NCBI GenBank assembly: GCA_001692895.1
Contig: KV748213.1
Coordinates: forward strand, 1 to 64,000
DNA length: 64,000 nt
DNA from: Cenococcum geophilum 1.58
Taxonomy: Eukaryota > Ascomycota > Dothideomycetes > Gloniales > Gloniaceae
Reading direction: 5' to 3'
A program made the translations under genes and the position numbers. Shown here piece after piece: positions 2,895 to 52,339 of the stretch. The stretch's first letter is position 1, and each line of letters starts with the position of its first letter. The notes under the pieces are model-generated. The model was not told the origin of the DNA. It worked only from the letters and a program-made list of their open reading frames with translations, and did not search any database.

Positions 2895-5800
2895 TTAATC
2901 AGTAAGACAGACTAGCCAGTCCGGGTCTGCATCCTCATCCTCAGGGTCGTTAGACGGCAAAGAGTCCCTGTCATCATCACTTGTATCTACCTTGACGAGG
3001 TCGGGAAGGCGTGGTGGTGATTTTGAAACATTTGGCTCTGACGTTTGTGCTTCTAAGTCGGGTGATGCGGTGGATTCTCTTGCAGAGGAATAAGTTTTTT
3101 CTTCGATCGCATCAGCCGACAAAGACCTCGTTGTCGAAATATGCCCTGGTTTCTCCCGAGCGGGACTCTGACTTCGTAACGTGCGGCCGGAATGTCCGTT
3201 ATATCCTAATGCCGTTGGCTCCGTAGTATCGACTTTGCGGCTTGAATCTGCAAAATCACCTACTTCTACTAGAAACCCACCGGCCATACTCAAATCTAGG
3301 ACTGAAGCTTCTTGGGGCATTGCTTGCTCTCCTCTTACTTTTTCGGGTGCAGACTCTTCACGTGTGAAGCCACCATCCTCTCCAGTACTATCTTCAGGAA
3401 GAAAACCTTCTCCCATATCATGTTTTGTGACGGGGTCCACATGCTGTCCACCATTTTCTTGGGCATACTCGTGAGCTTCTAGATCTCGCTCATCCATAGA
3501 ACCCTCAAAAGCATCGGCTTTTACGGGAATAAAACCACCGCCGTAATCACCCCCATATGCGAGACCCGAATTTACGGTTCTTGTAATGGGTCTCATTGGC
3601 TCAGTAGGACCAGCATCGGGGAAGAAGCCGCCAGCTTGATACCGTTCAGTAAGCTCGTCCTCAATACTGTCTATCTCTTGTTGGACATCAGCTGTTTGCC
3701 CGTCGATCTCGTAACCTCTCACTCTCTGGGCAATTCGCAGTCCTATGAGAAATCTCCTCCACAGCCGCAGAGCCCCGGCGCTTCGCTGAGCGTTCTCTGC
3801 TTCTTCTTTCATGTATGCAAATCCGTGAATGACGGCTTCGACGGCTTCGCGATACTGACTCGCCACTATAATTCCTTGTATGACGGCAGCACCGTGACGA
3901 CCTTTGAATTGAAATCCAGTAACGGCATCTGCATAGTCCACTCCTACTATACGAGCAGCTTTTGCAGCGTCAGGTGAGCGAACGTGGACGCCGTCTTTCG
4001 GGATCATAGACGGAACGTAAATGTCGAGGTTACCATAAGCGTTGCGAGGAACTCGACCCCGAACGACAGGCGGAGGGACGTAGAGCTCCGTCTGAAACGC
4101 TGCATAAAGGCCGACACACACATCATCTTCGGGATCTATGGCCTGTGGCGTTAGAGAGTGGCGAGTTCTTTTTCGTCGCTTTGCATGTTTCAGGGGCTGT
4201 GCGCCGTCCTGCTTGCCCGTTAATGTATTTACTGGATATTGACCCATATGTAGTGCCTACCATGACTTCCCGTCCAAGGCGGTACCATTTATCAGCACTT
4301 CTCACAATATGGACATCTCGCCTCCGATAAACTGACTCCATGTTGCTCGATGCAGCAGTGCCAATGTTGACTTTTCCAACTCCTTTCTTTGGATGAATGA
4401 CCTGATTATGTTTGAGATGGCGTTCAAGCACATATATAGGATGGTCCTTAAAGTCTTGGACGTTTCGCGGCATTCCTTCTGCGGCTTCTTTTCGTGCAAG
4501 TGCTGCGTCTTCGACTTGATCTCTGTCCTACATGAAGATTAGATCCAATTAAAACCCACATCTCGTATTCGCTCACAAGGATAGTTCCTCTTCTGAAGAC
4601 TTTAAGAGCCTTCTTCCACCATTTCGCACCCCCCTCTGTACTCTCAACTCTTGATCTCCTTGTTTTAGCATTGTATGCTTTCGCATACTGCCGGGTTATA
4701 TCTTTGGCAACGGAATCTTCTTCGAATGCAACGACATAGCTTAATACGGTTTGCTGATAGCCTAGTGGGGGTTCTAATTTATCAGGTTTGTCAACAGTAG
4801 AGGTTGAAAGTGGATCAACCGTAACCCATTTTTGAACTGCTGAATTGAAAGCTTCAACCCAGTAGACTGGATACGCGGTATGATGTATTTTTTTAGGCTT
4901 AGGCTCTGAAGAAATGTCAGCATGCAACCGTGCTAAAGGCGCTTAAATTTTACATACGGGGAGCTGGTTTGCTTAGACCATATCCATGATTTCTGGCGGA
5001 ACCAAGTTGTCCTAGCCTTGATATTCGCTTAGGTCGGCTCGGGGCTACTGATTTCTCTGCTTGAATGGTTGGGGCTGTAGATGCGTTTGCATCAGATTTA
5101 GAGCTCATAGGAGATGCATCTGATAAGGAGGGATCCAGGATCACAGTATTCTTTTGTATCTTCGGCGTCTGAAGATGTGTATTCTGTGCTATCGAAGCAA
5201 AAGGAAGGCACTGTAATGAGCATACTAATCGTGCTTCGACCCCAATCGCTCTTAGAAGAGCACAAAACAATTGGGTACCAACGTCTTGAGATCCTTCAAG
5301 TATCCTAGCAGCTTTTCTAAACTCCAGACGCTGCATAGGCGGGTCAAGGTTGTCAAGAATTTTGAGCTAATGTACGCCTGGAATTAGTAGATGAGACTTG
5401 AATTTCCTAGGAAGATTAGGTTCATACTTCTTGCTCTACTTCTTCACTATCAGCCCATCTTGGTTTATGTAGGCCTAGAGCCGTAATGGAGAATCTGCTC
5501 GACCACATCGTTTTGATGGCTTGAAGACCATTTATAAAGCATTTTGCGGCCTGGGCTTGAGTATGTTCGGGGTTCGGAATAAGGTCAGAGAGCATCTTTG
5601 GAGAAGGCAGCTTCCGTAAAATGTTCTAGGCAAATTAGCGTAGAGTGCCTTTCGATATAATCTGATTCAAAAGTACCTGGGCCCCGTCATCATTGCACCA
5701 AGCGTTCCGGAGATGGACGTGATATAATAGGCATAGAAGGTGCACTTTATGAATATCAAGTCTCCGTCTTTTATCAGCCGCAGTAACACCCTTCCGGCGA

Positions 5801-6324
5801 ACTTGCTTTGTAACTGTTTTACCAGCTTTGTTATCTCCAATGACGATCGAGAGATCCCCGATATGAGACTCAACTCGCGTAGTTTCTCCATCTTCGCCCT
5901 CAATTTGACCTAGCCCTACATCTTCCCATTCAAATTCACTTTCATCTGACTCTTCAGAATAATCTGTAACGGTGTGAAGCCTTGCATTCCAATTATAATC
6001 CACTATTTCTTGATCGCTTTCTGTCGGCGCCGGCGAGGTTGATTTGGGCGCAATTCGGATATTGGGAGCGGGGCTTTGTCTCGTATCGTCGGTTTCATTT
6101 CCAATAATGCCTCTTGCTGTCCTTCGTTTCTTCAGTGGTTTACTATCCTCATCAGCCCCAGCAACTACGGAAGTTGTTGCCTCCGAGAGTAAGTCTCGAA
6201 AGACTTCCGGAACTTCGGTATCTTGCTTTGAGATCCTGCCCTTTGTGCCTCGAGTGCGTGCCGCACTACTGGTACTCTGCGAAGCTAGCACTGTCTTCCG
6301 TGATCTGCCTCTACTGCCCGCCAT
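2895..6324 (-). CDS. RAD4: DNA repair protein Rad4/XPC homologue, six exons
   Basis: Rad4/XPC recognises helix-distorting lesions in nucleotide excision repair, acting in the nucleus with Rad23. I infer exons 6324-5677, 5625-5428, 5366-4958, 4905-4577, 4527-4261 and 4211-2895. The five introns are 51, 61, 52, 49 and 49 bp, all GT-AG, several with a CTAAT or CTGAC branch site. The joined frame is 3,168 bp (1,055 residues), near the usual fungal size. The transglutaminase-fold region runs from about residue 290 to 515 (SQDVGTQLFCALLRAIGVEA; PVYWVEAFNSAVQKW). BHD1 starts at MPRNVQDFKDHP, about residue 547. BHD2/BHD3 lie at about 605-750 (VPRNAYGNLDIYVP). The tail is acidic. ATG 6324 is chosen for its strong context (accATGg). 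Two in-frame stops near 5626-5640 lie inside intron 1 and are not lesions. The gene looks intact although transposons begin 261 bp upstream. Confidence 0.93.
5626..5676 (-). other. RAD4 intron 1 (51 bp)
   Basis: The donor is gtactt, the branch-like site gctaat and the acceptor cctag, in phase 0. Reading through it would meet TAA and TAG. Splicing instead joins CNDDGAQ to NILRKLPSP and gives the spacing I recall for other Rad4 proteins before the FINGL motif. Without this intron the gene would look broken. Confidence 0.85.
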
Positions 6325-6585
6325 GGTTATCGTATTCAAGATGAGAATGGGAAGAAGATAAGAAGAGACTGAAATCACCGACCAGCGGAGATGCAGATGT
6401 TGCGCCCGTTGGTTGTGAGACGCTGCGCATTGCTCCAAACAAGGTACGTAATAATAGTACAGATTTCTTTGAAAAACGGATGAACACGCGACCTTGCACA
6501 CAGACATGCTCTTTGTCTATCCCACAAGGCTGCCCAAGCTTTGCGGCTGATGACGCGCACTCACGTGCGGCTTGGCATCTAATTA
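6325..6585 (-). promoter_or_regulatory. RAD4 upstream region, truncated by a transposon
   Basis: Only 261 bp of host sequence separates the RAD4 start codon from the TA target site of the Fot1-like element. It has normal composition and no recognisable promoter motif. The native promoter is either compact or has been separated from farther upstream sequence by the 2.5-kb insertion. Confidence 0.5.
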
Positions 6586-9146: not shown

Positions 9147-11376
9147 AGTGTTGCCGAAAGCTCTAGAAGTGTTAAAATGCGCCACGTTGCAAAATCTTAC
9201 ACTAGATAAACTTTAATGAGTTTTTAGTATAAAATTCTTTAATTTTTGGCATTAATCTATTAAAGCTATATTAGATTAAATAATATTATAACTATCCTAT
9301 CTTTGGTATACGTAAGATTATATTATTTTAATATTAGAAATAGCTAATAATATATAAATACCCTAAAGTGCGAAAGATATATCTAGGGTAGATTAATAAT
9401 ATATCTAAGATATAATTTAAACACCCTTACATATCTACCTATGTTAGGTAGTTTTTCTATATTACTACTAATGGAAGTAACTTAGTCCTTAATTAAAGAC
9501 TTAGAATAATTATAAGAGGACTTCTTTTATTAATAGTAACGGGTGTAGAAGGAACGCACATATATTAAAGATGGTAATTAGGATATATCTGGCTTATATT
9601 GAGAGTGTTATAAAGATATATAATTCTAAATACCTATACTATAATAATCTACTAATACATTTTCTTTAACGGGAGTAGTAAGTAGAATTTTATAATGCGA
9701 GCTATATATAATATATAAACTAATTATTTCTATAATATAGCTAGGCTTAATATCAATTATATAAACTAGATTACTTATAGTAGAAAGACTTATATTTAGT
9801 TAAGATATTAGAATATTTTACATCCTCTAAATATAGGGTTAGATTTATTATAGATTTATCTAACCTATAGCTAAATAATAAGAATATTATTAAGATGTAT
9901 AAAAATATATATAAGAGACTATATCCTAAATAGATCCTATATATAACTAGGTTCTAATATAGATAAATATAATACTTATATATATTAAAAAACAAAATAA
10001 GTATAATATGCCCTCTTTTTAGCCTCTAAAAGTGCTTAAAAAAGACAAATACCCTATTTAGGCGTGTTTTATTATAAATACTTAAATCCTTAATTATAAA
10101 ACTTTTACTATAAGCAAATTATAGTAGAGGACTAGGAAAAAATACATAAATTTTTTTTTTAAAAAAGTATAATATATTTATAATATAGATGTTACAAACT
10201 CTTATATATATATTTAGTAATTTATTAGAATTAAATTAAGATAATATTAAACGAAGAGATATAAATATATAAGATATTTATTTATCTTATCTATTCTTAT
10301 TAACGTAGATATAAGCTTTATAATAGCATTTATTATATATTTTAGCACTGAATTGCCTATATAGAGTAAAGTACTAATTATAAGCTATATCTTTATATTA
10401 TAAAGTATACGGTTAGTGTCTAATAGGTCCTAAATATATTACTACTATAATTAAGCTATAACTAGTTACTTATAAATAGACCTATGGTAAGTATATACTA
10501 TACTAAGGGAAGTTAAATATAGAACTATAAAAAACACTACTAAAAGTCTCTTTCTTTAGTTTTAAGATACTTATTAAAATATTTAAGAGATTTACTTAAT
10601 TAAGGCTATTAGGGTACTCTAGAAACCTATATAGTAGTAAAGTATAGAAGAAAAAAAAACAAAAAATTGTGGTAAGTTATTATAATAAGTATATAACTAT
10701 AATATAATATTAATATATCTAGGCTGTAACTACGCCTAAGGACCTAGAAAATGGGTACTAGCCCTATATAATATAGAGTTTAACTATATATAGCTAGATA
10801 ATATTAAGGATTGCCCTTATATTATTTTAACTCCTTATAGTAAATATATACATCCTTTAGCGCCTCTATTAAAGGTGCCAATATAGCTTATTAAAGAACT
10901 TTGATAATATATCTAGCGATAGTTAGGGCTAGTGCTTACTTTAAGTATATTATATCTAAGCTATATTAAGACTCTATCTTTATTCTATTAGGTTCTTTTA
11001 TATACAGCCCTTTAATAAAAGAGTTTTATAATATATATATAACGTTACTAGCCTTCTAAGCCTTTATTAAAGCCTAGTAAATCTTAATAAGATGTAATAT
11101 ATAATTAAAAAGTAATAGCTTTTATTATTTCTATAAGGTTAAAATATATAAGGGGTAATATTTAAAAAGCATCTATATTATAAAATAGGTCTTAAATATA
11201 AAAAAAAAATTTACTAAAATAGTAAGCTAATAATTATATACTTTTAAAAAGGCTAGGCGGAAATAATATTAACGTTAAAAACGTTTAAAATTAATATATC
11301 GTTTAAATAAGTTAGTACAGCTAGGTTAGATAAAGTTGTAATTACTATAAATATCCCTAGAATTAATAAAGGTATT
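9147..11376 (+). mobile_element. Repeat family H, copy A, part 1
   Basis: It starts with a lightly mutated block (agtgttgccgaaagctc) shared with 61220-61290 and continues as strongly RIP-mutated DNA collinear with 61330-62760. No transposase or reverse transcriptase was recognised. The end resembles the CAGTGTTG-type ends of some hAT elements, but I found no matching opposite end and leave the class open. Copia-1 interrupts it at 11376 (gtatt duplication 11372-11376 and 33239-33243), and the copy resumes at 33239. Short minus-strand open frames over its left end recur at both copies and are repeat, not gene. Confidence 0.7.
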
Positions 11377-11457
11377 TATTTATATCAATTTAATAATATA
11401 AGTAAGTTATATCTAGGGGTATGAAATACATATAGTATTGTATGCTCTTTTAGATAG
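11377..11457 (-). repeat. Copia-1 3' LTR, distal piece
   Basis: These 81 bp plus 27201-27339 (139 bp) add up to the 220 bp of the other LTR. The break carries the Gypsy-1 duplication gatag (11453-11457 and 27196-27200). Confidence 0.9.
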
Positions 11458-11882
11458 TGTAACGGAACCTTATAGCAAGAACTACGGTAGGCTCGTTATT
11501 AGGCTAGGTGTATAGGAAATGCAAGTACAAAAGTCAACAACGTAATAACAACTAGTGGAGTGGTTGCCCAATAGATTAACTCTAATTATATTCTAAGAAT
11601 TACTATAAGGAAGGAACTATCTAGGTAGGGACTAAGGGTCCTTAAATACATAACTGTACTCCTATAAAATCCTTCTTATACGTAATATACGTCTTATATA
11701 TAAGGTATATAAGTTCCTCTTATTCCTCTTATTTAATATATAGCATATTATATAACCTTAGTTACTATTCCTCATTATATAGTTCTATTGGCTCTATTCT
11801 AGACTATACCTAAATTAACTAACTAGCTTCTTCCGTTTCTTCTCTAAGTAGTTATAATATCGTACTTAAAGCGTCCGTAATA
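11458..11882 (-). repeat. Gypsy-1 3' LTR (425 bp)
   Basis: On the plus strand it starts tgtaacggaacc and ends gcgtccgtaata. It is collinear with 26771-27195 and, inverted, with the Gypsy-2 LTRs. Confidence 0.92.
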
Positions 11883-11899
11883 CCATCTCCCTCCTCTTT

Positions 11900-14800
11900 A
11901 TCTTTGTCCTTAAAGATTCGAAACATCTCTAAGTTATTTACTAGAGGTATAATATCCGTCTAATTAATTTAGTTAATATTATTGCTTATTATACCTAAAG
12001 TAATTTCTTCTTTATACGCCCAACGTTGTGCTTACACTATTACTGTAATACTATCTCTTAGTGAGATTATGCTATCTCCGTATTCTTGTTGTTTAAAAGA
12101 GGGGTTAGTTTATATTGCGTTAGTAAACCTATCTTTACAATAACTGTTCTCTTACTTAAAGTATACTAAAGCGAATATTCGTTTGTCCTATAATATTCGC
12201 TTTACTTCTAATACTAAATATACGTAACCTATTACTCTTAATAGTCGTCTAGTTCCCTAATTAATTTGTCTTAGGGTTTTATATTTAATCTACTACTGCG
12301 CGGCTAGATAGTAAACTATTATAAGCCCTTACTAAGTTAGAACGTTCCTATAACGCGGAATAGAAAGCTCTAGATACTTAAATTACGGCGTTTACTTATT
12401 TACTTCGTCTTAAGAAGGTTTATAAGAAGGTTTATTCTAAGGAGTAGAAACTTATAAAATAAGGTTTATAGGAACTAGGTAATAAAAGAACGGACTTTCC
12501 TCTAATAGAGAAGGAAATAGATCTAAGTAGTTCGGCAACTGCTCTTCTTAGGTCCCCCTTAGGTAACTTATTCTTTAGCAATCCTTCTTTATTAATATTA
12601 CTTAACCTAATCTCTTCCGATACTCCTATACCTTTCTTATAGCGTTCTTTAAATTCTCTAGTAGCTCCTAGGTAGTCTTAGTATAGCCTATTTACTTAAC
12701 CTTATACCATATTTTATTGTTAATGTCCTTATAATTAACGATCTTTAATACTTACTATTTATCTTCTTCCTATCCTCTATACGTGTCTACTTTATAAACC
12801 GGTGGCTTAATATTCCTATATACTGGCTCTAGTATTATAATATACTATATAGGGTAGATCTTTATTTTGGCTAGTAGGTTTAACTTAAATATAACCGGTG
12901 AAATCCTCTATATAATTTTAAAAGGTCCTAGTTTAACGTGGTCCAACTTCTTACTTAGTTATTAACTCTTAAAATTTTTATGTAGTAACTATACTTTATC
13001 TCCCTCCTTAAGATCTAGTCCCTTAAATCTCTTAGCATTATAGTACCTTTTTATTCTTTTTTATACTTTTTTTACTAATTCTATAAGGTCTATATAAAGA
13101 TTTATTAACGTCTTTATTCTTTCTTTAGCTATACTACTCATTTTTTTTACTTACTGTGGTAATAACGATATTCTTAGCTTATATTTATAATTTGCCTTAA
13201 ATGGTAATATACCTATTCCTTTTTAAGGTATTATATTATATGCAAACTATATAACTAGTAATAGTAATACCTAATTATTCTATATATAATTAATATAATA
13301 CCTTAGTGACTACTCTAGCGTCTAATTTAATCTTTTTATTTAACTATCTATCTGCGGATAGTATATAGTAGAAGTTACTACTTAAACTCCTTACTCTACT
13401 AAGAACACTTCCTAAAATGCTGCTATAAATCTTAGGTCTCTATCTAATATAATTTTACTTAGTACTCTATGTCTTATAAATACTTCTTTAATATAGATTC
13501 TAGCGATATCTTCTGCTAAGATTTCTTCTATATATACTATAAAGTATCCCCACTTTATAAGCTTATCTATTATTACTAAGATCGCGTTATAATCTTATCT
13601 AGTAATAGAATCTTTTAATTTTGGCAACTTAATAATAAAGTCCTATAATATAACCTTCTATAGTCTTTCTGGTATTTTAATAGGTTATAGCCCTCTATAT
13701 AGCTTATACCTTATTAGTTTATTCCTTTAGTAATCTAGACATTCCTTTATAACTTTTCTAGCTATCCTCTAGATTCCGTTAATAATATACTCCTCCTAGA
13801 GTCTTAATACTAAGCCCGTAGCTCTATTATATCCTTAAGTTAGTCCCTTATAGAAGTCTTCCATAAACTACTCTACTATGCTTCTTAGGATATACTTTAC
13901 TTCTTAATTTATATATATATCCGTCTATAGATCTTTTAGCTATGCTTTTAGAATTCTTTATACCTAAAAGCTTTCTGGTATCTTATAGACTTTCTCTAGT
14001 TTATTATCTTCTTAAGTTGCTATAATTCTTAGATAATTATACCTAATTAATCCGTCTATATCCTTTCGTAATAGAGCCCTTAATAGCTTCTCCTTATTTT
14101 ATAGTTTAGCTTTGCGGCTTAGAGCATCTACCCTTATATTATCTATACCTTTAATATACTAAATTTTAAAATAGTATTCCGTAAGTATCTCTGCCTATCT
14201 AACCTATCTTTAGTTAAGTTCCTTCGTTATTAGGAATCCTATTAGGTTCTTATAATCCGTCTTAACTATAAATAGTTTTTCTATACCTTGTAAAAATACT
14301 CTCTATTCCTTTAATACTATAACTATACCTAATAACTCCTTATTGTAGATGTTATAGTTTAACTCTAGTAGTATTATCTTTCAACTATAGTATACCACTA
14401 GGTGCCATCTATTTTAATACCTTTATATAAAGTATGCCCCTAGTATATAATCTAATATATCCGTCTTTATAACTGTCTCTAGTTTTAGTTAATAGATCTT
14501 AAGAACTAGCTCCTAGGTAAACAACTTTTTAACTTTTTTAAAGAGTTCTTTTTACTCCTCTCCCTATGCCTATAGTTCTTCTTTCTTTATTAACCTTATA
14601 AGTGGCTTAATATTCTTTAACTACTGCGCTATAAACCTTCTATAGTAATTATAAAACCCTAGGAATAATCTTAACTATATAACGTTCTTTAATTCCTACT
14701 AATTTACTATAGCCTTAATCTTCTTTAAATCTATACTAAGTTAGCCTGGTTTAATAATAAATCTAATAAAATTAGTCTTCCTAGTAAAGAACTTGTATTT

Positions 14801-15429
14801 CTTAATTGCTACTAGTATTTATTCTTCTTGTAGTCTTTTTAAAACCCATTTAATATGTTCCCTATATTCTTCCTTAGTTATTAAATAGATAATAATATTG
14901 TTAAGATATACCATAATAAATTCATTTAAGTATTCTCCTAATATATTATTAATACGCTTTTAGAATGTTGCTAGTATGTTTATAAGCCCAAATTATATAA
15001 CTAATAGTTTATATAGTCCTTCCTTTAACCTAAAGGCTGCCTTCTATTTGTTACCTTCTTTAATCCTAATCTAATAGTACGCCTATCTTAGATCTATCTT
15101 TGTAAAGATTTGCGTATTACCTATTCTATTTTAGATTTCGCTAATTAAGGGTAAAGGATACCTATCCTTCCTAGTAATGCTGTTTAACTGTCTATAGTTA
15201 ATACACAGCCTTAGTTTACTATTTTTCTTTAGTATAAATAGTACTAGATAACCCGCTAATAACTGTAATGGTCTAATATATCCCTTTTATAGATTTTCCT
15301 AGATAAACTCTTTTAACGCTCTACCTTCTTCTTTAGTAAGCTTATAGATTAGAAAAAACTTTAGACTTATTCCTAGTTCTAACTCTATTTTATAGTCCTA
15401 TACTATATATTCTAACAGCTTCTTACTTT
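11900..15429 (-). pseudogene. Gypsy-1 pol relic: RT, RNase H, integrase
   Basis: This is the dead pol region of a Ty3/Gypsy element, read right to left. The reverse-transcriptase active-site box appears on the minus strand at about 14889-14920 as VYLNNIIIYL, for VYLDDILIY, with both Asp changed to Asn by G-to-A. Integrase and a chromodomain-like end should follow leftwards, by collinearity with the better-read Gypsy-2. Stop codons, mostly TAA/TAG, occur every few tens of codons. The pol upstream part (protease side) lies in 15430-17429. Confidence 0.8.
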
Positions 15430-17429
15430 CTAGTAACTATAGTTTCTTACCGTACTTATAGTATCTCTTTAGTATATAACTTAGTCCTTTTTCTATTTCT
15501 TTATAGGTTACTCCTACTTAGTACCATACCATCTTAGCTTATTATTGCATTTTATAATATTAAGTATTTCTAATATTAACCTAACCTGTAATCTAATTAA
15601 TCCTTAAATTATATTCCTATAATTAAGGCATGCCTAATACTGCCTTGTCCCGTCCTAATAGTAAGATATTAAAAGACATCTTAATTTGTCTCCCTTTAAT
15701 AGTTATCTAAATAGGTCCTGTTTTAAGATTAATAATCCCTTCTTTATAGGTTATTAGATCTCCTAAAATTATAACTAATAGGTAAGATTGCTCCTTTTAT
15801 CTATAAGGTAATCCTATTCTTTTAACTACTACTAGTAAGATATAGTTTCGCGTTACTCCACTATCTATTAGCGCTTTAAACTGCTAATCTTACTAATTAA
15901 CTTATAAATTTAGGTGTTGTCCTTAAATTCCTTTAAGGGTCTAAGGCTCTACTACTAGCTCCCTCTAGTCCCGTGGGCCTCTACTTTTCCTAACTATTAG
16001 CTACTTAATTCTGGTATATTTGGCTTACTCTTTAGCCAATGCCTAGTTCGCTTTTTATCTTTAATATACTATAAACACGTGTTTTCTAGGCATTCCCACT
16101 ACTATTATCCATCTAAGCATTCTTCCGTAAGGAATCTTCCTAGTTAAAGTACTAAACTTCCTTCCTCTTAGACCTTTGCTAGATGCTATCTATATATATA
16201 TTTAGTATTCCTATACTATTGCTTGTCCATTATCTAGTACATCCTTATAGGGTATTTCCGATTCTTTTTTTTTGGATTCTTATATATTTCGTATATATTA
16301 TCTATGCACGCAATCCATAATAACGTATAGTATGCTAGGTGCTTTAGGTTAACTCTTAGCTCGTTTTCGTCCTTAAGTTTAAACCTTTATTATACTAATC
16401 TAAACGTTATAACTCTATTTATAGGTACTAAGATACACCTCTTACTTCTCTAGTTCTTTAAACGTTCCTCTAGATCCTTTAATATTATAATTAAGGCTCC
16501 TTTAATATGCGTTATAGCCTTTTCTATAATTAGGTGGTTTTANATAACTTTTTTATCCAACCATATATAGAAATCTTCCTACTTATTATTATGCCTTTGC
16601 CTATACTACTTTTGGTATAGCTGCTAAAGTATATACGGTCTATCCGTAAGGAAGTATCTTCTTATTGCTGTATTATAATAGCCCTTTATATATCATTCCT
16701 TAAACCTAGTTAGAATCCCTAAAGCCTCTTTATCTTCCAGTTTAGTAAGCTACTTAGCTCTTAGTATGCCTACTCTCGGTCTATTAATAATTCTTTATAC
16801 TAGTACTCTATCCTTTATACATCCTAATATACTAGATCTTTTATCTAGTTTCTGTTCTTACTATATAATGATTTTTTGCCTAAACTCTTCTATAGTTTCT
16901 TTTAGTTTGCGTCTTGTGTTCTAATCCTTAAAGTCGTCTTGCTTCTTAATCCTGGTATTAATTTTTTAATCTTTAGTTTAAACACTTTATTTAACTAGTA
17001 AATCCTCTAGGTCTATATATTTGTCTCCTAGTCTAATTACTATTTATACCGTAGATTCTCTAATTTATAAAGAAGCTCCTTACCTCTTGTCTATAGGTGT
17101 CCTAATTTATACTCCGAATTCTTAACCCCTTAGGTTCTTTAATCCTAAGCTTGCTTTTAACTTAAGCTTAGCTCCAGTCTTAGTCTAACTAGGCTTACTT
17201 AGTGTTCTTATCTCGTCTTAAAAGTCTTAAATCTTACTTATCTTGTCTTAAGAGTCTTATATTTATAGGAACTTCTATCCTAAGCTTATTCGTATATCTT
17301 TAAACTAAGCTACTACTCTACTCTATCAGTTATTGTCTATTATAGGTCCTTAAGCTTACCTTATCTCGTTTTAAGAATCTTAGTTATCTCTTATCTCGCT
17401 ATAAGAATCTTAAGCCTTTAGCCTTTTGC
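15430..17429 (-). pseudogene. Gypsy-1 pol 5' part; source of a 2,000-bp duplicate
   Basis: RIP-mutated Gypsy sequence corresponding to the gag-pol junction and protease region. At a constant offset of 7,787 bp it matches 23217-25216 in every line I compared, including the ambiguous base n at 16543/24330. The natural continuation of this block is 25217, not the N run that follows it here. Confidence 0.85.
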
Positions 17430-17454
17430 NNNNNNNNNNNNNNNNNNNNNNNNN
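17430..17454. other. Assembly gap of 25 N
   Basis: Exactly 25 N separate the end of the first 2-kb block from the mirror segment. A round size like this points to a placeholder, not a measured gap. Confidence 0.97.
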
Positions 17455-20400
17455 TTCATCTTCGACAATCTTAATACATATCCTGATATTTATCTCAATC
17501 TTGATCCTTATTCAGATTCAAAAAAGATTAGATATTCGAATGATTTCTTCTTCCATCTCGCATTTTCTCAATATAATCCTTTAGATATTTTCCCATATAA
17601 TCTGGTAATGTCAATAATCGCCAAATAATCATGATAAATATGATTTCTTTTTATCATTGATTCCGACACATAATTGATATCTTCAATTTGTCGTAATGAT
17701 CTTCCATATAGGAAATGGGAATTAATCGCTTTAGATTTATCTTATCCATTATGCGTTTAGAATGTTTCTATCTAGATTCTATCGCATGATAATCTAATCT
17801 AATTTCTTCCATTTGTTATTTCCGTCGAAATCCAATTTCCTTCCTGATTATTGATACATCAATATATTAAACCCGAATATTGTAGATCGTTGTAAGATTT
17901 TCGCAAATTTATATAATCCTCTATGAATTACTTAAATAATACCATATAGATGGTTAAATAATAGAAAATTATTGATTCCTTTCTTATATCCCTTGTATAT
18001 TACTCCAAAATTTTTCTATGTTCTTCCTTATTATGATCACAGGGTTGATCATATCTAGATAATGATGTTCTATTACAATAATATAATAATCTGGTCCATA
18101 TCATTGAATCAATCTAAAATTTCTAATAATTCTTTAAGAAATTAATCAGCCTTGATTCTTGCAGTCATTCTACAGGATCCCAAAAATAAATGATATCGTC
18201 TAAATATATACTTCTTAATTCGTGTAATATCTCAATTATTTCTTCTCTTATGAATATCCTATCCCTCTCCTCATTTCTTTAATATTTTTCAAATTTACTA
18301 TAGATCGGGCCTCGCATGAATTAATAAGAAAATATAATCGAATATATCATAACAACTTGCTAAATATACAATCGAGGAAATCCCAATGAAATCAACTTCT
18401 CTAACTCATGCTTATCTAACAGTTGGATGACGTGTCATACCAAATAAAAAATCTAGATATGAGAGATTTCAATTGTCGATTTATATGCAGGCGTGAATCC
18501 CTCTTCGTACTCGATATTGGTATCATAATTTTTACCTATCCTATCGGTGTCTATGATGTCTCATGCAAACATGATTTATATCTAATTTTGAGGTATTACA
18601 ATCCTTGAATTCATTACTTATTCCTAGGAATTAATTTTAGAACGTATCTTCATGCTTCCGATACATTTTATTGCGATTTATTGTCTGTTAACCGCTTTAT
18701 AATCTCTAAAGAAGAATCGATATGATAAAATTATAACGTGTACGTCCCTCGTCTGCGATGGCGCTGATCGCGTTAGAGGGCTTCGGTGTTGAACAACTTA
18801 TTCAAAATTTTTCTGATTTTCTTCTGTATTAATTTATTGCGATGAACGCTACTATGTTCCAAGGTATGTTCAGAGAATCAATTAATCCCTACTTCGTTGA
18901 GTCTATAATAATATCCTCGAAACATTCAATAATTTGGTCGCAGGATTATATGGTTCTTCGGCAATCCCTATTTCTTAACGAATGTCATATTCTGTATCTA
19001 TTGTCTCGATTCTCCATATAGTTATATTTACATCTTCGGTTCATATAGGATTCGTAGCATACGCATCAAAATACCTTCCCTGAAGATAATTCCTGATGAA
19101 TTCTATTTATCTCATGCGCCGAATCATACTTCTGAGATCCTCCTCCATATAATATGCTTAGAATCTCTATCGATCTTTTCAATATTTCCTTACAAGATCT
19201 AATGATTCCTTTATTGATTATCCTATTCGATATATCTCCCGACATTGGATAATTTGGTCTTTCTGATAGTTCATATAATATCTGAAATAATAATTTCAAC
19301 GGTTCTTTCTTAAGAAAGATTCTATTCTAATATTGCGCAAATCATTATATCATTCGATATTTCACCCCTATGAAATACAATATATCTCTTAGAATCTCTT
19401 CTATAGCGATCTAGATTATTTCTTCATAAATATGCTGTATCTCATTGATGTCATTTTAATATAATTATCTCTGATTCTAAAATATCTCGTAGAATCCTCA
19501 CAAGAACATCTATCTCAATATTCATCATGAAGTGATATAAGATAGGCGTCTATGCCTACAATTCTTTTCTAATTTATCTGGGCGATCTCACAGTACAATT
19601 TTTTACATAATATACATTATACTATATATCTTATTATCATAATGAAATGATCATATATCAACTTATTAATTATGGACTTTTTCCTATCCATATTAATGTA
19701 AATTCCGTTTAATATTTATATCATTCTTATAGCAATAATGGGTCATTCATTGTTTTTACTCATCATATTCGATTCTTTCTTATTTTGAATTAATTTAAAT
19801 ATATCGGGAAATTCTTATTTAAATCATTTTTTCATATTTTTCTTATTTTTCATGGATATTCCGATTCTCTAAATTCTGATCTAGAATTCTCCCTCTATTC
19901 ATATCATGATGTATTTTAAAATTCTCAATTATTGATTCATCTTCAACCTGGGTGCAATTGATCTGGAAAATTATTATATATCTCCTACAGTGGCAATATA
20001 AATCAATGGGTGATCGGTTTATTTCTAGATGGGAATATCATATAATATTGATGATCTCGGTCATATATCCTTATAATTCGGTGGCCAAATATTTGCATCC
20101 TGGTGCATATTCTACCTCTTCTATTTATCATTTAAATTCTAGCAAATTAATATCCTGTAATTGTTATTTTATACATATTCCAATTCATTTATCCGATATG
20201 ATTCGATGATCCCGATTGACCTTGAAAATTTCCTTGCGGATATCTTTTCGATACCGTCATAGCCTTCGTCGTAATAATTTCATTATAATTATTTCTTCCA
20301 ACGATTCTTATTCATGTGGATTCCCCGGATTCTCTCGTCAACGCTTGATGAATTAGATATGGAAGAGATAATCCCTTTCAGGCAAATAAAATAATGGACA

Positions 20401-23216
20401 AGGAATATTTGGTAGAATATTCAAAGATGAGGAATCTTTATTTGGATGGATATTTGGAAGAATTCTGCTTCTATTATTCATTTGCGGCATTAAATTCATA
20501 GATCCGAAAGATAGGCGCAATATCCTTGCAAGATTGAAGCATTCCGAATAATTATCAATGTAGATCGGCGCGTATCACTAATTTATATTTTGGGATCCTG
20601 TTTAATTAATCCCCTTATCTGCTGATATGCTCATTATAATGCATATAAATATAATCTTCATTTCGCTTATAATATCCTGTTTGCTATAGTCGAAATCATA
20701 TGCATTCATTCTCTTGTCAATAAATTTCTATCCATGATTGCGTTATATTGATTGGGAAAAATTTGTTGTCTTGATGCCTCATCGTATTAGAGTGTTCATC
20801 ATATGTCATTAATCACATTCGTGTTGCAACCCGCATATTTCTTCTTTAATGAAATCCATTATTTTCGTTATGTAAAATTGATTTAATTAATCGCCTATAA
20901 ATGGAGATCATTTATTGAATCTCTAAAGCTTGAAATTCTGTTTCTATTCTCCCCCTCTACAGAATGCCTTGCGATTCATGCTAATAATATGGATGAATCT
21001 CTTCTTTGCCTTCTCGGATCAATCAATTTAAATCCATAATAGACTTATCTCGGTATCTTGATTATTACTCTTATCATTGATTCCAATATATTATACGGAT
21101 ATATAATTTATCTCCGTATTCTCCTTGAATATAATGGAATATATATTCTGCATAGATGCATATTCTCCGTATAAATATCCTCATGTCAATACATAAATAC
21201 CCTGGGAAGAGGGGATCTATAAGGAAGGAATAATCATAAGATCTTATATTAATCAATAGATACCCTTTGGTGAGGTGATCAACATAATGCAACAACTGAA
21301 ACATGAACGTAAAGGATAGTGGATACGGATTATTTGCTCGGATGGTAAGAAGGCTATTCCAAGGCAAGGTGATAGATTCGTATGTTATTGATATACATTA
21401 ATATGGGGATCTATATTGAATGAATATTAATATTAACTATATTTATTTAGGGAAATAATTAAGATCCCATATAATATGTTTGAAATAGATTGGATCGACC
21501 GATGATTGAATAAATTTCTATATAATTAAAATTGCAAAAATTGCAATTATAATAGGCGGATCGGAAAAATTTAATATATAAATAAACGAATATAAAATCA
21601 TTTAAAAAAAAAATTATAATCTGGGATAAATAATACTACGGAAAAAATTATAATGGGGAAATTAAATTGGATATCCTTATTATTTTCGATATGAAAATTA
21701 ATATAATGTGTAATAATTCTATAATGATCCGAAATTATTTCGAATCTTCCGACATTGCATATATATTAATATTTGAGAAATAATTTCCCGACATATATTT
21801 CTTGGATTATCTTATTTCTATCTCAATAATCGAATATATTATTGAATTTCATTCGTATCGGGATGATAAGCGATTATATAATAGTTTTCAAGAAATTATT
21901 CGATATACCGTGGACAATTATCCCGCTTCTACATATATAAATGTAATTCCTCTTTTATTATATTCCGTTAGGCAATTAAATAGATCATATATACAATTTG
22001 GTATAATATACCCGTATCATGGGTAAAGATCCAGGATCCAGCATCAAGTCGGATCTATATAATTATAAAAAATATCAATCAATGATAATTTATTGAATGG
22101 TGTTAAAAAACAAAAAAAAGAGATATGAAATGATGATATATCCAAAGATCTCATGGGATTATCGTATAATTCATTTAGAGAATTTATAACATTATCATAG
22201 AATTTTGATTCTTCTCTGAAAATCATCTCAAAATATCAAGAATAAATTGGTAAGGGAAGCAGTATCATTATGAATGGTATCAGATAAATATTCTTGATAA
22301 TATCAATTAATATCATCATTATGATAAATCCTGGATAATCTGGTGATTGGCATATGAATATTATATTTTATATCAAATTAATCTGAATGCGATATATCGT
22401 TAAGTCACGATTTTATAATTATTTACGATAATAATTTCGAATATAGAGCAATTATCTTATCTATTCTATTTATTATTAGTAATATATAAATACAAGAGGA
22501 AGCAAATTATAATAGAATTAAATTAGATTATTTATATTATATATATATTTCAAACATTGTAGATATAATATTTATAATATGAAAAAATTTTTTTTAAATA
22601 CATAAAAAGGATAGGAGATGATATTAAACTGAATATCATTTAAAATATTATTCCTAAATCTCATGAAATATGTATTTTTGGCGGAATTTTATCCATAAAC
22701 AGAAAAAATTCGTGAAAATCCCGAGTTTCTCCCGTATAATATGAATAGAAACAAAAATTATATATATCATATATAAATAGATATAACTGGATCAATTCAT
22801 TATCCTAGAGTAAATCTATATCAGAGTATATAAAAATATGTAGAATTATTTATAAGAATAATAACGATATCCAATTAATTTTAGATATTATTTAGATTGG
22901 GATATGAACTCCTACATTTATAAGGATATAGAATTGATTTAATATTCAGAAAGAGATATTATTAGATCAAAATAATTAATAATAAATTCGGTCGATATAA
23001 TTCTTTATAAATCAATATATAATATATATCGAGCGTAATATTTTAAGATGAATATGAGGCAATTTCTTTCCATAATCAGCTAGATATATAGTCATATCGC
23101 ATAATCCTAATATATAGAAATATTGTGAGAGTTATATGTCGGTCTATATGGAGATTAATGGTAGATTATAACACGCAAAGGAAGATGTGGGCATGATAAT
23201 TATTTTCTTCAGGAGA
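17455..23216. other. Mirror (reversed, uncomplemented) copy of 9515-15429
   Basis: Read from 23216 backwards to 17455, without complementing, this 5,762-bp segment reproduces 9515-15429 with many small indels and substitutions. Examples: 20384 back to 20365 reads acggactttccctaatagag, against 12490-12510. 21370 back to 21351 reads tggaacggaaccttatcgga, against the LTR start at 11458. 19552 back to 19541 reads atctgcggatag, identical to 13350-13361. It spans H, the Copia-1 LTR piece, the Gypsy-1 LTR and pol in order. Short open frames inside it (for example 19952-20209, 21074-21367) have no biological meaning. I infer an assembly or processing error using a low-accuracy sequence. Confidence 0.93.
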
Positions 23217-25216
23217 CTAGTAACTATAGTTTCTTACCGTACTTATAGTATCTCTTTAGTATATAACTTAGTCCTTTTTCTATTTCTTTATAGGTTACTC
23301 CTACTTAGTACCATACCATCTTAGCTTATTATTGCATTTTATAATATTAAGTATTTCTAATATTAACCTAACCTGTAATCTAATTAATCCTTAAATTATA
23401 TTCCTATAATTAAGGCATGCCTAATACTGCCTTGTCCCGTCCTAATAGTAAGATATTAAAAGACATCTTAATTTGTCTCCCTTTAATAGTTATCTAAATA
23501 GGTCCTGTTTTAAGATTAATAATCCCTTCTTTATAGGTTATTAGATCTCCTAAAATTATAACTAATAGGTAAGATTGCTCCTTTTATCTATAAGGTAATC
23601 CTATTCTTTTAACTACTACTAGTAAGATATAGTTTCGCGTTACTCCACTATCTATTAGCGCTTTAAACTGCTAATCTTACTAATTAACTTATAAATTTAG
23701 GTGTTGTCCTTAAATTCCTTTAAGGGTCTAAGGCTCTACTACTAGCTCCCTCTAGTCCCGTGGGCCTCTACTTTTCCTAACTATTAGCTACTTAATTCTG
23801 GTATATTTGGCTTACTCTTTAGCCAATGCCTAGTTCGCTTTTTATCTTTAATATACTATAAACACGTGTTTTCTAGGCATTCCCACTACTATTATCCATC
23901 TAAGCATTCTTCCGTAAGGAATCTTCCTAGTTAAAGTACTAAACTTCCTTCCTCTTAGACCTTTGCTAGATGCTATCTATATATATATTTAGTATTCCTA
24001 TACTATTGCTTGTCCATTATCTAGTACATCCTTATAGGGTATTTCCGATTCTTTTTTTTTGGATTCTTATATATTTCGTATATATTATCTATGCACGCAA
24101 TCCATAATAACGTATAGTATGCTAGGTGCTTTAGGTTAACTCTTAGCTCGTTTTCGTCCTTAAGTTTAAACCTTTATTATACTAATCTAAACGTTATAAC
24201 TCTATTTATAGGTACTAAGATACACCTCTTACTTCTCTAGTTCTTTAAACGTTCCTCTAGATCCTTTAATATTATAATTAAGGCTCCTTTAATATGCGTT
24301 ATAGCCTTTTCTATAATTAGGTGGTTTTANATAACTTTTTTATCCAACCATATATAGAAATCTTCCTACTTATTATTATGCCTTTGCCTATACTACTTTT
24401 GGTATAGCTGCTAAAGTATATACGGTCTATCCGTAAGGAAGTATCTTCTTATTGCTGTATTATAATAGCCCTTTATATATCATTCCTTAAACCTAGTTAG
24501 AATCCCTAAAGCCTCTTTATCTTCCAGTTTAGTAAGCTACTTAGCTCTTAGTATGCCTACTCTCGGTCTATTAATAATTCTTTATACTAGTACTCTATCC
24601 TTTATACATCCTAATATACTAGATCTTTTATCTAGTTTCTGTTCTTACTATATAATGATTTTTTGCCTAAACTCTTCTATAGTTTCTTTTAGTTTGCGTC
24701 TTGTGTTCTAATCCTTAAAGTCGTCTTGCTTCTTAATCCTGGTATTAATTTTTTAATCTTTAGTTTAAACACTTTATTTAACTAGTAAATCCTCTAGGTC
24801 TATATATTTGTCTCCTAGTCTAATTACTATTTATACCGTAGATTCTCTAATTTATAAAGAAGCTCCTTACCTCTTGTCTATAGGTGTCCTAATTTATACT
24901 CCGAATTCTTAACCCCTTAGGTTCTTTAATCCTAAGCTTGCTTTTAACTTAAGCTTAGCTCCAGTCTTAGTCTAACTAGGCTTACTTAGTGTTCTTATCT
25001 CGTCTTAAAAGTCTTAAATCTTACTTATCTTGTCTTAAGAGTCTTATATTTATAGGAACTTCTATCCTAAGCTTATTCGTATATCTTTAAACTAAGCTAC
25101 TACTCTACTCTATCAGTTATTGTCTATTATAGGTCCTTAAGCTTACCTTATCTCGTTTTAAGAATCTTAGTTATCTCTTATCTCGCTATAAGAATCTTAA
25201 GCCTTTAGCCTTTTGC
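23217..25216 (-). repeat. Exact second copy of 15430-17429 (2,000 bp)
   Basis: It is ungapped and identical to 15430-17429 in all lines compared, including the shared n. RIP-mutated sequence diverges quickly between copies, so perfect identity over 2,000 bp means one genomic locus written twice. This copy is continuous with the Gypsy-1 gag at 25217 onwards. Confidence 0.93.
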
Positions 25217-26726
25217 CTTTATTAAGTGCCAAAGTGGTTTACTATCCTACTTCTCTTATATCTNGTAAAGCGATAGACATTATGTCTAGTNGGGTTTTAA
25301 TCCCTACTAATATTTCCTATTCTATAGTGGAATTATCCTCTACCTTTAGTATAACATCTCTAAGGTCTACTCGCTCCTAGTAAGCGGCCCTTATTACCTT
25401 ATCGTTACGGAATGTTTCGCCTAGGTTAAATTTATTATCCTTAATATCTAATCTACAAACTAGTTTATTGGTTCCTTTATATCCTATAGGTGCTAGCTCT
25501 TATAGCTAATAGCTTGCGCCGTACTTAGCATCTTTATAAATTTAGTATACGTTGTTATAACAAAACGTAAAACTTCTAATTAAACATTTTTTTATTCCTC
25601 GCAGCATATTATCGTCCCTTTATACGTATATATCGTCTACTAGTCTCGTACCCTTTACTGCGTAGTAACTCTGCCCACTTCTATAGTCTCTAATATAATA
25701 ACCCTATTTTCCGCAATTTATGCAAGCTCCTTTTTTAAACTATTTCTCTTACTATAGAGTCCGCCTGAATATCTTCTGCTAATAAGATCCCTAATTTAGC
25801 CTCTGCTCCTTAGACCTTTAATCGCCTAATTCTTATCCTCTAGGTTTCTATAGTTTACTCCATCTCTTATAGGCTTCTTTAGTACCACTTAGGTCTATTA
25901 GCTCTGCGCCATACTATAATTTCTAACTTAGCTTTTGTTATTGCGTACTCTACGCCTTATACAACTATAGAACTCTATCCTAGCCTTTCTTAGCCTATTC
26001 CCTTTAGTAGATCTAATTATTAATCTTAATCGCCTAATCTATTAGTTCCCTTAGGGTGTCCGCATCTTCTATTAGGATAATCGCGTCCTAAACTTTATCC
26101 TTAAGTCCCTATTTATACTATGCCTTAAGCGCCCTATTATTCCACTTTACTTATATTGCTAGTGTCTAGAACTGTGTTATATACTTAATTACTAAAGTTC
26201 GTTGCACGAGGTTCTAGAGTTTTCTTTTTACTATAGTTATTTCTTCCGGGTCTCTAAATATCTACGTAAGTCATTCTATAAATCCTTCCTAACTTAAAAA
26301 CATAAATCGCACGTCTTAGTTAGTGGTCGTTATTCCGTTTACCTATATCTTTATAAGGTAAAATTTAAACCACTTAAGTGCTTTTCCTAATAAGAATAGT
26401 CCTGCGTAGGCTATCCGATCCACGGGTATAGATAACTTTACTCCCTCTTATGAGACCTTAAAGTGCATCTACATAAGGAATCCTTTGAGCTTTAACCTCT
26501 CTCCTATAAATCTCTTAATTAATAGTAGCTTAATCTTTGCTGCTCCTATCCTATTAAGTCTTTCTTCTAATACTATATTATTAGCTGTTAGCTAGTTAAC
26601 TATTTCCTATAGCTATCTAACCGTCATAGGTTGCTGTGAGTTAGTATCTGCTATACTGGTATTACCTCCTGTCCTTAAAGTAGTTGCTACCGTTAATAGC
26701 GTCGTGGTGGCTGCTTTTGGTGGCAT
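25217..26726 (-). pseudogene. Gypsy-1 gag relic
   Basis: The gag reading frame of Gypsy-1 begins at an ATG at 26726, 44 bp inside the 5' LTR (26771-27195), with MPPKAA-type codons collinear with the Gypsy-2 gag start at 44694. It runs leftwards into 25217. Gag would form the virus-like particle in which reverse transcription occurs. RIP stops disrupt it, and two single ambiguous bases occur near 25264 and 25291. Confidence 0.75.
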
Positions 26727-26770
26727 ATTATTTAACTTCTTATATTAATACCGTAACTAGGTAGTAATTA

Positions 26771-27195
26771 TATAACGGAACCTTGTAGCAAGAACTATGG
26801 TAGGCTTATTATTGGGCTAGGTATATAGGAAATACAAGTATAAAAGTTAACAACGTAATAATAACTGGTGGAGTGGTTGCCTAATAGATTAACTTTAATT
26901 GTATTCTGAGAATTACTATAAGGAAGGAACTATTTAGGTAGGGACTAAGGGTCCTTAAATATACAACCGTACTCCTATGAAATCCTTCTTATACGTAATG
27001 TATGTCTTATACGTAAGGTACGTAAGTTCCTCTCGTTCCTCTTGTTTAATATATAGCACATTATATGACCTTAGTTACTATTCCTTGTCATATGGTTCTA
27101 TTGGCTCCATCCTAAACCGTGCCTAAATTAACCAACTAGCTTCTTCCATTTCTTCTCCAAGTAGTCGTAACATCGTACTTAAAGCGTCCGTAATA
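26771..27195 (-). repeat. Gypsy-1 5' LTR (425 bp)
   Basis: It starts tataacggaacc (first bases changed from tgtaac by G-to-A) and ends gcgtccgtaata. It has the same length as 11458-11882, and most of the differences I noted between the two are transitions. Confidence 0.92.
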
Positions 27196-44226: not shown

Positions 44227-44648
44227 TGTTACGGACGCTTTAAGTACAATGTTACGACTACTAGGAGAGGAGTCGGAAGAAGCTAGTTAGTTAATCTAGG
44301 CACGGTCCAGAATAGAGCCGGTAGAATTATGTGACGAGGAATAGTAAGCGAGGTTATATAATATGCTATGTATTAAACGAGAGGAACGAAAGAAACTTAC
44401 GTATCTTATATATCTTACGTATATTATATATAAGAAGGATTTTATAGGAGTATGGTTGTGTATTTAAGGACCCTTAATCCCTACCTAGATAGTTCCTTCC
44501 TTATAGTGATTTTTAGAATATAATTAGAGTTAATCTATTAGGCAACTACTCTACCAGTTATTATTCGTCGTTAACTTTAATTTGTATTACCTATATACCT
44601 AGCCCATTAACAAGCCCATTATAGTTCTTACTATAAGGTTCCGTTATA
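44227..44648 (+). repeat. Gypsy-2 5' LTR (422 bp)
   Basis: It starts tgttacggacgc and ends ggttccgttata. It is the reverse complement of the Gypsy-1 LTR type. Confidence 0.92.
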
Positions 44649-44693
44649 TAATTACTACCTAGTTACGGTATTAAATACAGAAAGTTGAATAAT

Positions 44694-47600
44694 ATGCCAC
44701 CAAAAGCACCAGCTACGACGCTATTGACGGCGGCAACTACTTTAAGGTTAGGTAACGACACTAGTATGGCAGATATTAACTTATAGCAACCTATAACAGT
44801 CGGACAACTATAAGAGATAGTTAACTAGCTAATAGAAAATAATGCGACGTTAGAAAATAGGATTAATAGAATAGGAGTAGCAAAGATTAAGCTACTATTA
44901 ATTAAAAGGTACTTAGGAGAAAGATTAAAGCTTAAAGGATTCCTTACGCAGATATACTTTAAGGTTATATAAGAAGGAGTTAAGCTATTAACACCTATAG
45001 ATCAAATAGCGTATACGGGACTATTCCTATTAGGGAGGGCACTTAAGTAGTTTAAGTCTTACCTTACGGAGATATAAGCGAATAGCATAATAACTATTAA
45101 TTAAGACGTACGATTTATATTCGTAAGCTAGAAAGGGTTCGCGAAATAATTAATATAGATATTTAGAGACCCGGAGATAGTAACTATGGTAAAGAGGAAA
45201 CTCTAAAATATTACGTAACGAACCTTAGCAATTAAGTACATAACGCAGTTCTAAACGTTAGCGATATAAGTTAAGTGGAATAATAGGGCGCTTATAGTAT
45301 AGTACAAATAAGGACTTAAGGCTAAAGTCTAGGACGTGATTATCCTAATAGGAGATGCGGATACCCTAAGGGAACTAATAGATTAAGTAATTAAGATTAA
45401 TAATCGGATCTACTAAAGGGAATAGGCTAAGAGAGGCTAGGATAGAGTTTTATAGTTGTATAAGGCGTAGAATATATAACGACTAAAGCTAAGTTAAAAA
45501 CTATAGTATAGCGCAGAGCTAATAGACCTAAGTAGTACTAAAGAAGCCTATAAGGGATAGAGTAAGAAACCGTAGAAACCTAGAGGATAAGGATTAAGTA
45601 ATTAAAGGTCTAAGGAGCAGAGGCTAAATTAGGGATTTTAATAGTAGAAGATATTTAGGCGGACTCTATAGCAAGAAAAATGGTTTAAAGAAGGAGCTTA
45701 TATAAATTACGGAAAATAGGGTTATTATATTAGAGACTATAAGAGTGGTTAGAGTTACTATATAGTAAAAGGAACGAGACTAGTAAACGATATATACGTA
45801 TAGAGGGACGATAATATGCTGCGAGGAACAAAAGAGTATTTAATTAGAAGTTTCGCGTTTTGTTATAACAACGTATACTAAATTTATAAGGACGCTAAGT
45901 ATAGCGCAAGCTATTAGCTATAGGAGCTATATTTAGCGGAATATAAAGGAACTAATAAACTAGTTCGTAGATCGGATATTAAGGACGATAACTTTAATAT
46001 AGGTGAAACATTTTATAATAATAAGGCAACGAAAGCGGCTTACTAGGAGTACGTAGACCTCAGAGATAATATAATAGAGGAAGAGGATAATTCTACTACG
46101 GAATAGGAAATATTAGTAGGGATTAAGACCCTACTAGATATAATATCTATTACCTCGCGAAACGTAAGAGAAGTAGGGCAGCGAACTATTTCGGCACTTA
46201 ATAAAGGCAAAAGGCTAAAGGCTTAAGATTCTTAAGACGAGATAAGGCAAGCTTAAGGACCTATAACGGACAATAACTAATGGAGTAGAGTAGTAGCTTA
46301 GTTTAAAGATATACGAATAAGCTCGGGATAGAGTTTCCTACAGGTATAAGACTTTTAAGACAAGATGAGTAAGATTTAAGATTTTTAAGACGAGATAAGA
46401 ATACTAAGAAAGCCTAGTTAGACTAAGGCTGGAGTAAAGCTTAAGACAAAAGCAAGCTCAGGATTATAAATCTAAAAGGGTTAAGAATTTAGAGTATAAA
46501 TAAGGACACCTATAAATAAGAGGCAAGAGGCTTCTTTATAGATTAGAGAATCTATAATACAAATAGTAACTAGACTGGGAGACAGGTATATAGACCTAGA
46601 AGACTTACTAGGGGAACGCAGTGTTTAGCCTAAAGATCGAAATATTAATACTGAGATTAAGAAGTAAGGAAACTTTAAGGATCTACTTATAAGACGCGAA
46701 AAAAAAGAAACCATAGAGGAATTTAGGGCAAGAATTACCTCATAGTAAGAGCAGAAACTAGATAAGAGATCTAGTATATTGGGACATATAAGGGACAGAG
46801 CGCTAGTATAAAGAATTACTAATAGGCTTAGAACAGGTATACTAAGAGCTAAGTAGCTTATTAAACTGGAATAAGAAGAGGATCTAGGGATTCTAACTAG
46901 GTTTAAGGAACGATATACTAAAGGCTATTACGATATAGTAATAAGAAGATACTTCCTTACGGACGAGCCATATATACTCTAGCAGCTATACTAAAAGTGG
47001 TATAGGCAAAGGCACAATGATAAGTGGGAAGATTTCTATATATAGTTAGATAAGAAAGTTATCCAAGACCACCCAATTACAAAAAAAGCGATAAGTCACA
47101 TTAAGGGAGCCTTAATTATAACATTAAAGGATCTAAAGGAGCGTTTAAAGGACTAGAGAAGCAAGAGATGTATTTTAGTACCTATAAATAAAGTTATAAC
47201 GTTTAGATTAACACGAGAGAGGTTTAAACTTAAGGATAAAGACGAGCTAAGAGTTAACCTAAAGCACTAAGCATACTATACATTAGCATAGATTGTATAT
47301 GTGGACGATATATATAATATACACTAAGCACCAAAAGGTAAGTATTGGAAATACTCTATAAGAATATATTAGTTAGCAGAAGAATAGAAGTATTAAAACG
47401 CTAAGTATATACATAGCTAGCATCTAGTAAAAGTTTAGGAGTTAGGTAACTTAATACTTTAACCAAAAAGATTCCTTACGGAAGAATGCCTAGATAGATA
47501 ATAGTGGTGGGAATGCCTAGAGAATACGTATCTATAGTATATTAAGGACAAAAAGCGAATTAAGTATTAGCTAAAGACGGACTAAGTATAAACAGGATTA

Positions 47601-51718: not shown

Positions 51719-51969
51719 TATTATAGACGCTTTAAGTACAATATTATAACTACTAGGAGAGGAGTTAGAAGAAGCTAGTTAGTTAATTTAGGCATAGTCT
51801 AAAATAGAGCCGGTAAAACCATATAATAAGGAATAGTAAGTAAGGTTATATAATATGCTATATATTAAATAAGAGGAATAAAAGAAACTTATATACCTTA
51901 TATATAAGACGTATATTATGTATAAGAAGGATTTTATAGAAGTACGGTTATGTATTTAAGGACCCTTAG
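51719..51969 (+). repeat. Gypsy-2 3' LTR, left piece
   Basis: It starts tattatagacgc and ends cttag at the Gypsy-3 insertion. It is continued at 57940-58110. Confidence 0.9.
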
Positions 51970-52339
51970 TATTATAGGACACCCCCATAACACCTTATAC
52001 ACGTCTACCTGTTTCTACCGACTTAGCAATTAGAGACCAACCGCGAAATAGTAATTTAATGGCAATCTAATGGCAATCTAACGGTAATTTACGGCATTCT
52101 GCCATATTCTGCTAAGTTTTACTGAATTCTACCAAGTTCTGCTAGGACTATAACCTAAACCCTATTCTGCCTATATACGTGTTAACTAAGCAACTAAGTT
52201 AACAATATATGCCCTTTCTTCCCATTTCCCTACCTTCTTTCCTTATATAACGTCTTGACCTTCTTATACAGTTTATATATATAGCTTAATAATATCTACC
52301 TTGCTATATATTATCGTCGCTTATACTTACTCCGTGATA
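51970..52339 (+). repeat. Gypsy-3 5' LTR (370 bp)
   Basis: It runs from tattataggacaccccc to ctccgtgata, followed by ctacgttgcg. A near-identical ttacgttgcg follows the Gypsy-4 LTR, so this is probably the shared primer-binding region. Confidence 0.9.

Follow-up and report, generated by a model that had tools for sequence, protein, structure and literature searches.

How did the genome assembly of the ascomycete Cenococcum geophilum 1.58 come to contain several kilobases of sequence that make sense only when their letters are read from last to first? The sequence in question is a 5,762-bp block (17455-23216) within the first 64,000 nucleotides of contig KV748213.1 (GenBank assembly GCA_001692895.1). 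We call this whole 64,000-nucleotide stretch the window. The block lies inside a long terminal repeat (LTR) element, and it repeats sequence found a few kilobases upstream, the source, in reverse letter order and uncomplemented. We conclude that the block arose through an error of data processing and is no biological feature.

The block matches its source only as a plain reversal

The source, the block and a poorly matching patch within it lie as follows.

9515-15429, + strand: source, in normal orientation; a repeat-rich flank and the initial ~4 kb of the LTR element
17455-23216, no strand assigned: backwards block; 9515-15429 in reverse letter order, uncomplemented, with about 12-15% errors
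18323-18879, no strand assigned: low-quality patch inside the block, 557 bp

When the block was reversed without complementing, blastn aligned it to the source in two collinear pieces that together span 9508-15428. The larger places 18880-23223 on 14050-9508 (4494 bits, identity in 86.3% of 4655 columns) and the smaller places 17455-18322 on 15428-14499 (867 bits, 84.9% of 941 columns). The highest scores for the control readings of the block were 36.5 bits (forward), 32.8 bits (complement) and 30.1 bits (reverse complement). Global alignment gave the same picture. The plain reversal scored 7852.5, with identity in 84.1% of columns, compared to 200.5 for the forward reading, 687 for the complement, -38 for the reverse complement and 293-378 for five mononucleotide shuffles.

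The original prediction, made from the letters of the window, was that the block read backwards reproduces 9515-15429, and it proposed global alignment with controls as a check. Both the local and the global comparison bear this out. Its by-eye estimate of 10-15% small differences also agrees with the measured values (13% of source length over 9515-14050 and 15% over 14499-15429). Collinearity along the full block, as first proposed, holds for the two long pieces but not for the patch between them, which has almost no match to the corresponding 448 bp of source (14051-14498). Of its four readings, the plain reversal alone shows collinearity with the source, and this is weak (z 3.9 relative to 200 shuffles; z -0.7 to -1.8 for the other three). 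Three short matches had been offered as exact anchors. Only the third proved exact in block and source alike. The first is one base short against the source, and the local alignment of the second covers 16 of its 20 bases and includes one mismatch.

A real inverted duplication would resemble this arrangement in that its parts run in the opposite order to those of the source. However, its second copy would be the reverse complement, a reading in which this block scores as random sequence does. We therefore rejected inversion and inverted duplication (reverse complement at most 30.1 bits by blastn, -38 globally).

A gap and an exact duplicate frame the block

The surroundings of the block, and the LTR element that carries it, comprise these features.

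15430-17429, + strand: first copy of a 2000-bp duplicate (D1), the same string as 23217-25216; ends at the gap
17430-17454, no strand: unresolved scaffold gap of exactly 25 N
23217-25216, + strand: second copy of the duplicate (D2); probable start of the right-hand contig
11460-11882, + strand: LTR of the element that bears the artefact, 423 bp, 88.9% identical to 26773-27195
26773-27195, + strand: second LTR of the same element, paired with 11460-11882
44229-51970, - strand: inverted sister copy of the element, an internal control for the expected layout

D1 and D2 agree in 2000 of 2000 letters, among them the one N that each contains (16543 in D1, 24330 in D2). The block begins flush after the 25 N and ends flush at D2, and the window as a whole runs source, duplicate, 25 N, backwards source, duplicate, remainder. 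The block letter that touches D2 mirrors the beginning of the source, and the one that touches the gap mirrors its end. A leftward extension of D2 in the correct orientation would have the opposite order, and therefore the extension was flipped in place.

Two other readings of the duplicate were considered and rejected. Independent copies from a true tandem duplication of 15430-17429 would be expected to differ, and these are identical even in an ambiguous N. A mirror that ran on through the 2-kb spacer is rejected because the spacer is an exact duplicate. We conclude that the two copies are part of the same artefact as the block. In total, the artefact accounts for 7,787 bp of the window (25 N + 5,762 + 2,000).

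The sister element has the layout expected of an undisturbed copy. It aligns to the window copy in a left piece (11631-17382 on 51970-46224) and a right piece (23218-27193 on 48175-44229), and one stretch of it, 48175-46224, matches D1 as well as D2. The sister thus carries the duplicated sequence once, with neither a second copy nor a backwards block. Both source and sister are full of stops. The paired LTRs agree with a Ty3/Gypsy element as host of the block. Part of the source had been labelled Gypsy-1 pol, a label that we could not confirm, as Pfam matched none of ten pieces free of stops. Six of these came from the block and four, of 56-85 amino acids, from source and sister (no hit at an E-value of 0.01).

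Differences from the source resemble read error

Over 9515-14050, substitutions between block and source run at 1.1% in the flanking sequence and 2.5% in the element itself, and insertions and deletions (indels) at 10.5% and 11.6%, respectively. Transitions make up 24 of the 85 substitutions. True copies in this window have diverged in another manner. Between the sister element and the window copy, substitutions amount to 10.2% (536 of 585 are transitions) and indels to 3.3%, and all 44 substitutions between the paired LTRs are transitions. We take this transition-dominated divergence of element copies to fit repeat-induced point mutation. A diverged paralogue was rejected as the origin of the block, because error is alike in flank and element and transitions do not dominate. 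From its pattern of differences, the block reads as error-rich long-read sequence of this very locus, not as a diverged copy.

Backwards sequence recurs beside gaps elsewhere in the genome

As queries against the 177.2-Mb genome we used parts of the block and almost its full length. Backwards sequence was found in at least eight other places, a lower bound since only the best candidates were scored. Using our own labels for the assembled sequences, these lie on C3 (5.63 Mb), C58 (0.63 Mb), C6 (1.30 Mb), C10 (1.19, 2.79 and 2.92 Mb), C47 (0.42 Mb; one search only, E 2e-6) and C29 (1.34 Mb). Genome-wide, backwards probes had 4 to 11 candidates, compared to 3739 for a forward probe (12500-14000). 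Of these 3739, 40 were scored, and 39 were non-self matches at 91-92% identity.

An N run of at least 25 lay within the match ±1.5 kb at all eight backwards sites, compared to none of 12 forward copies; these control loci came from the 39 non-self matches listed, all high-scoring and complete, and are therefore biased away from gaps. The stretches compared were of similar length (3.0 kb for forward controls, 3.1-3.9 kb for reversed matches). The N run is 25 long at six sites, 2732 long on C6 and at least 1155 long at 2.79 Mb on C10. At the seven sites viewed in regions of 10-30 kb, the backwards block always lies beside a gap, and at five (C3, C6, C47 and C10 at 1.19 and 2.92 Mb) the backwards part is flush with the N run or at most 3 bases off.

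Several of these sites repeat the arrangement in the window. The same order (duplicate, 25 N, backwards block, duplicate) is present on C3, where the duplicate measures 2078 bp and is 99.95% identical. It is present again at 2.92 Mb on C10, with a duplicate of at least 2612 bp (99.92%). C47 has the mirror-image layout, in which the first duplicate (1962 bp, 100%) is followed by a backwards match of 114 columns, then by 25 N and the second duplicate. The left contig on C6 reaches reference position 5416 and then continues backwards from 5749 to 5417, a base-flush right-hand extension followed by the 2732 N. The 25-N gap within C29:1338087-1341477 is flanked by backwards sequence on both sides, and here each of the two contig ends was apparently extended and flipped.

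The remaining sites are less complete. At 1.19 Mb on C10, a 3.5-kb backwards block contains a palindrome, and the nearest copy beyond the gap has 94% identity. The palindrome is an 80%-identical inverted repeat (C10:1188389-1189142, centre near 1188765), as would come from a fold-back or chimeric read. C58 carries a backwards element fragment (632340-633263), the mapped part of which begins 250 bp from the 25-N gap. The contigs on C58 may be wrongly joined at this gap. The site at 2.79 Mb on C10, known by its match and N run alone, scores up to 288 bits and ends about 345 bp from the N run. We conclude that the fault was repeated in the gap-filling step and was not a single slip.

Gap filling with long reads as the probable origin of the block

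The original prediction attributed the block to an assembly or file-handling error that had inserted a low-accuracy long read backwards. The 25-N gap, the exact duplicate with its shared N, the error spectrum and the recurrence all support this. Judged from sequence, the block is very probably a product of long-read gap filling in which a contig extension was written flipped, and not the organism's DNA. Under this model, the neighbouring contigs would have overlapped by the 2000 bp of the duplicate, and the scaffolder would have set them apart with a gap. The gap filler would then have anchored long-read sequence spanning the true junction on the right-hand contig at D2. The overhanging 5.8 kb, which is the sequence left of the duplicate (9515-15429), would have been used as a leftward extension into the gap and written in flipped letter order. 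With the two sides unjoined, a 25-N placeholder would have been left. A plus-strand read reversed without complementing and a minus-strand read complemented without reversing would yield identical letters; therefore, the sequence cannot tell which slip occurred.

Much of this has precedent. PBJelly is described as aligning long reads to contig ends and extending those ends into gaps, with unjoined extensions flagged as overfilled (PMC3504050). By default, it is reported to inflate gaps shorter than 25 bp to exactly 25 bp (PMC6733440), and overfilled gaps are reported to inflate assemblies (PMC9635638, PMC7757076). Hybrid fungal assemblies of the Joint Genome Institute (JGI) are described in general terms as combining ALLPATHS-LG with PBJelly patching (PMC7550596). 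The C. geophilum assembly was published at 178 Mb, and its description refers to ALLPATHS-LG with gaps filled using the PacBio (Pacific Biosciences) RS. We infer that the assembly studied here is this ALLPATHS-LG and PacBio assembly and that the gap was overfilled; the gap filler was probably PBJelly or a similar program.

The block resembles an overfilled gap as described for PBJelly (English et al. 2012, PMC3504050) in its unjoined long-read extension, in its excess sequence and, given the 25-bp padding (PMC6733440), in the exact 25-N gap left behind. However, the overfilled gaps in that description are in the correct orientation, and the reverse letter order found here goes unmentioned in the portions of it that we drew on. 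A second known artefact is false duplication from overlapping contig ends (a negative gap). It shares with the window identical sequence on both sides of a gap (the duplicates measure 2000 bp here, 2078 bp on C3 and 1962 bp on C47), but by itself it leaves no backwards block. Our literature search found no described assembly artefact that is reversed and not complemented, although subscription journals and software issue trackers may hold prior reports.

Several observations weigh against a flipped extension from PacBio gap filling. In the global alignment, deletions in the block outnumber insertions by about 2:1. Raw PacBio reads are instead rich in insertions, and the block may therefore represent a local consensus or another platform. 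No SMRTbell adapter was found in the window or in seven regions under any of four readings (best scores 11-20 of 45), and none lies at the centre of the palindrome on C10. The C. geophilum PacBio library is described as sheared to 3 kb, and a block of 5.8 kb therefore needs an oversize fragment, if it was a single pass, or several reads. The methods section, in the part that deals with gaps, states that they were filled with Pacific Biosciences data and gives the filler no name. Among the sites viewed in regions of 10-30 kb, a near-exact duplicate is present at three of seven and absent from C58, C6, C29 and C10 at 1.19 Mb, and C58 has no mirror source inside the 30 kb examined. Finally, the gaps studied were all reached through a match to the block and so form a selected sample.

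The flip might instead have arisen in some other data-handling step: in another gap-filling program, in a patching script written in-house or when files were converted later. The sequence itself names no software, and the methods, where they touch on gaps, mention only Pacific Biosciences gap filling. On the other hand, the exact 25-N gap and the extensions at contig ends match the behaviour described for PBJelly, a program that is reported in JGI hybrid fungal assemblies, and flips from a later file conversion would not be limited to extensions that adjoin gaps. We regard an origin in such a step as unlikely. It is still less plausible that the sequencer was responsible, having read a molecule in the opposite chemical direction (for example, a strand drawn backwards through a nanopore) with the output used as given. 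A plain reversal with high error would be expected in this case too. However, a read in backwards order would fail to align to the contig and would therefore not be selected for the gap. Furthermore, in the window, on C3, C6 and C47 and at 2.92 Mb on C10, the flipped stretch sits exactly where the extension from contig edge to gap would be expected, which points to a flip made once alignment and trimming of the read were complete.

That the block is real DNA, a mirror-image duplication made by copying with parallel strand polarity, is the least credible reading and has next to no standing in our view. The reversal is long and its order exact, and by our own derivation parallel-strand copying followed by normal replication would yield it in principle, but we know of no polymerase with parallel polarity. 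Moreover, 25 N lie flush at one end, an exact duplicate copies an ambiguity code, the indel spectrum is that of reads without the transition-dominated divergence of true copies, and all eight other sites lie close to gaps.

Other features of the window

Two genes and two groups of ambiguous bases lie away from the artefact.

2895-6516, - strand: Rad4/XPC DNA-repair gene with several exons (Pfam Rad4, BHD_2, BHD_3); extent past those exons judged by eye
59531-60058, - strand: intact RNase H gene (Pfam RNase_H)

The RNase H gene has close relatives in metagenomes, with identity up to 99%. Relatives of the RNase H and Rad4 genes are fungal, and the best named are from Pochonia chlamydosporia (83%) and Cryomyces minteri (61% over 44% of the query). 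Scattered single Ns cluster at 49171-49233 (10 N) and 63716-63786 (19 N) in normal surroundings, as if polymorphic or low-quality positions had been masked.

Consequences for the assembly

Ordinary similarity searches do not see backwards sequence, and it therefore passes as unique. It may also draw spurious gene or repeat calls, and it inflates genome size; in this assembly, the source element appears at twice its true length. A search for plain-reversal matches beside 25-N gaps is a cheap screen that could join the usual assembly checks. We also raise, as a speculative and rather doubtful extension, that the flip is a general fault in one extension branch of a long-read gap filler in wide use, in which case many public hybrid assemblies would be affected. 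If so, backwards stretches beside 25-N gaps would escape notice because ordinary aligners never try plain reversal, and annotators would take them for unique, gene-free or orphan sequence.

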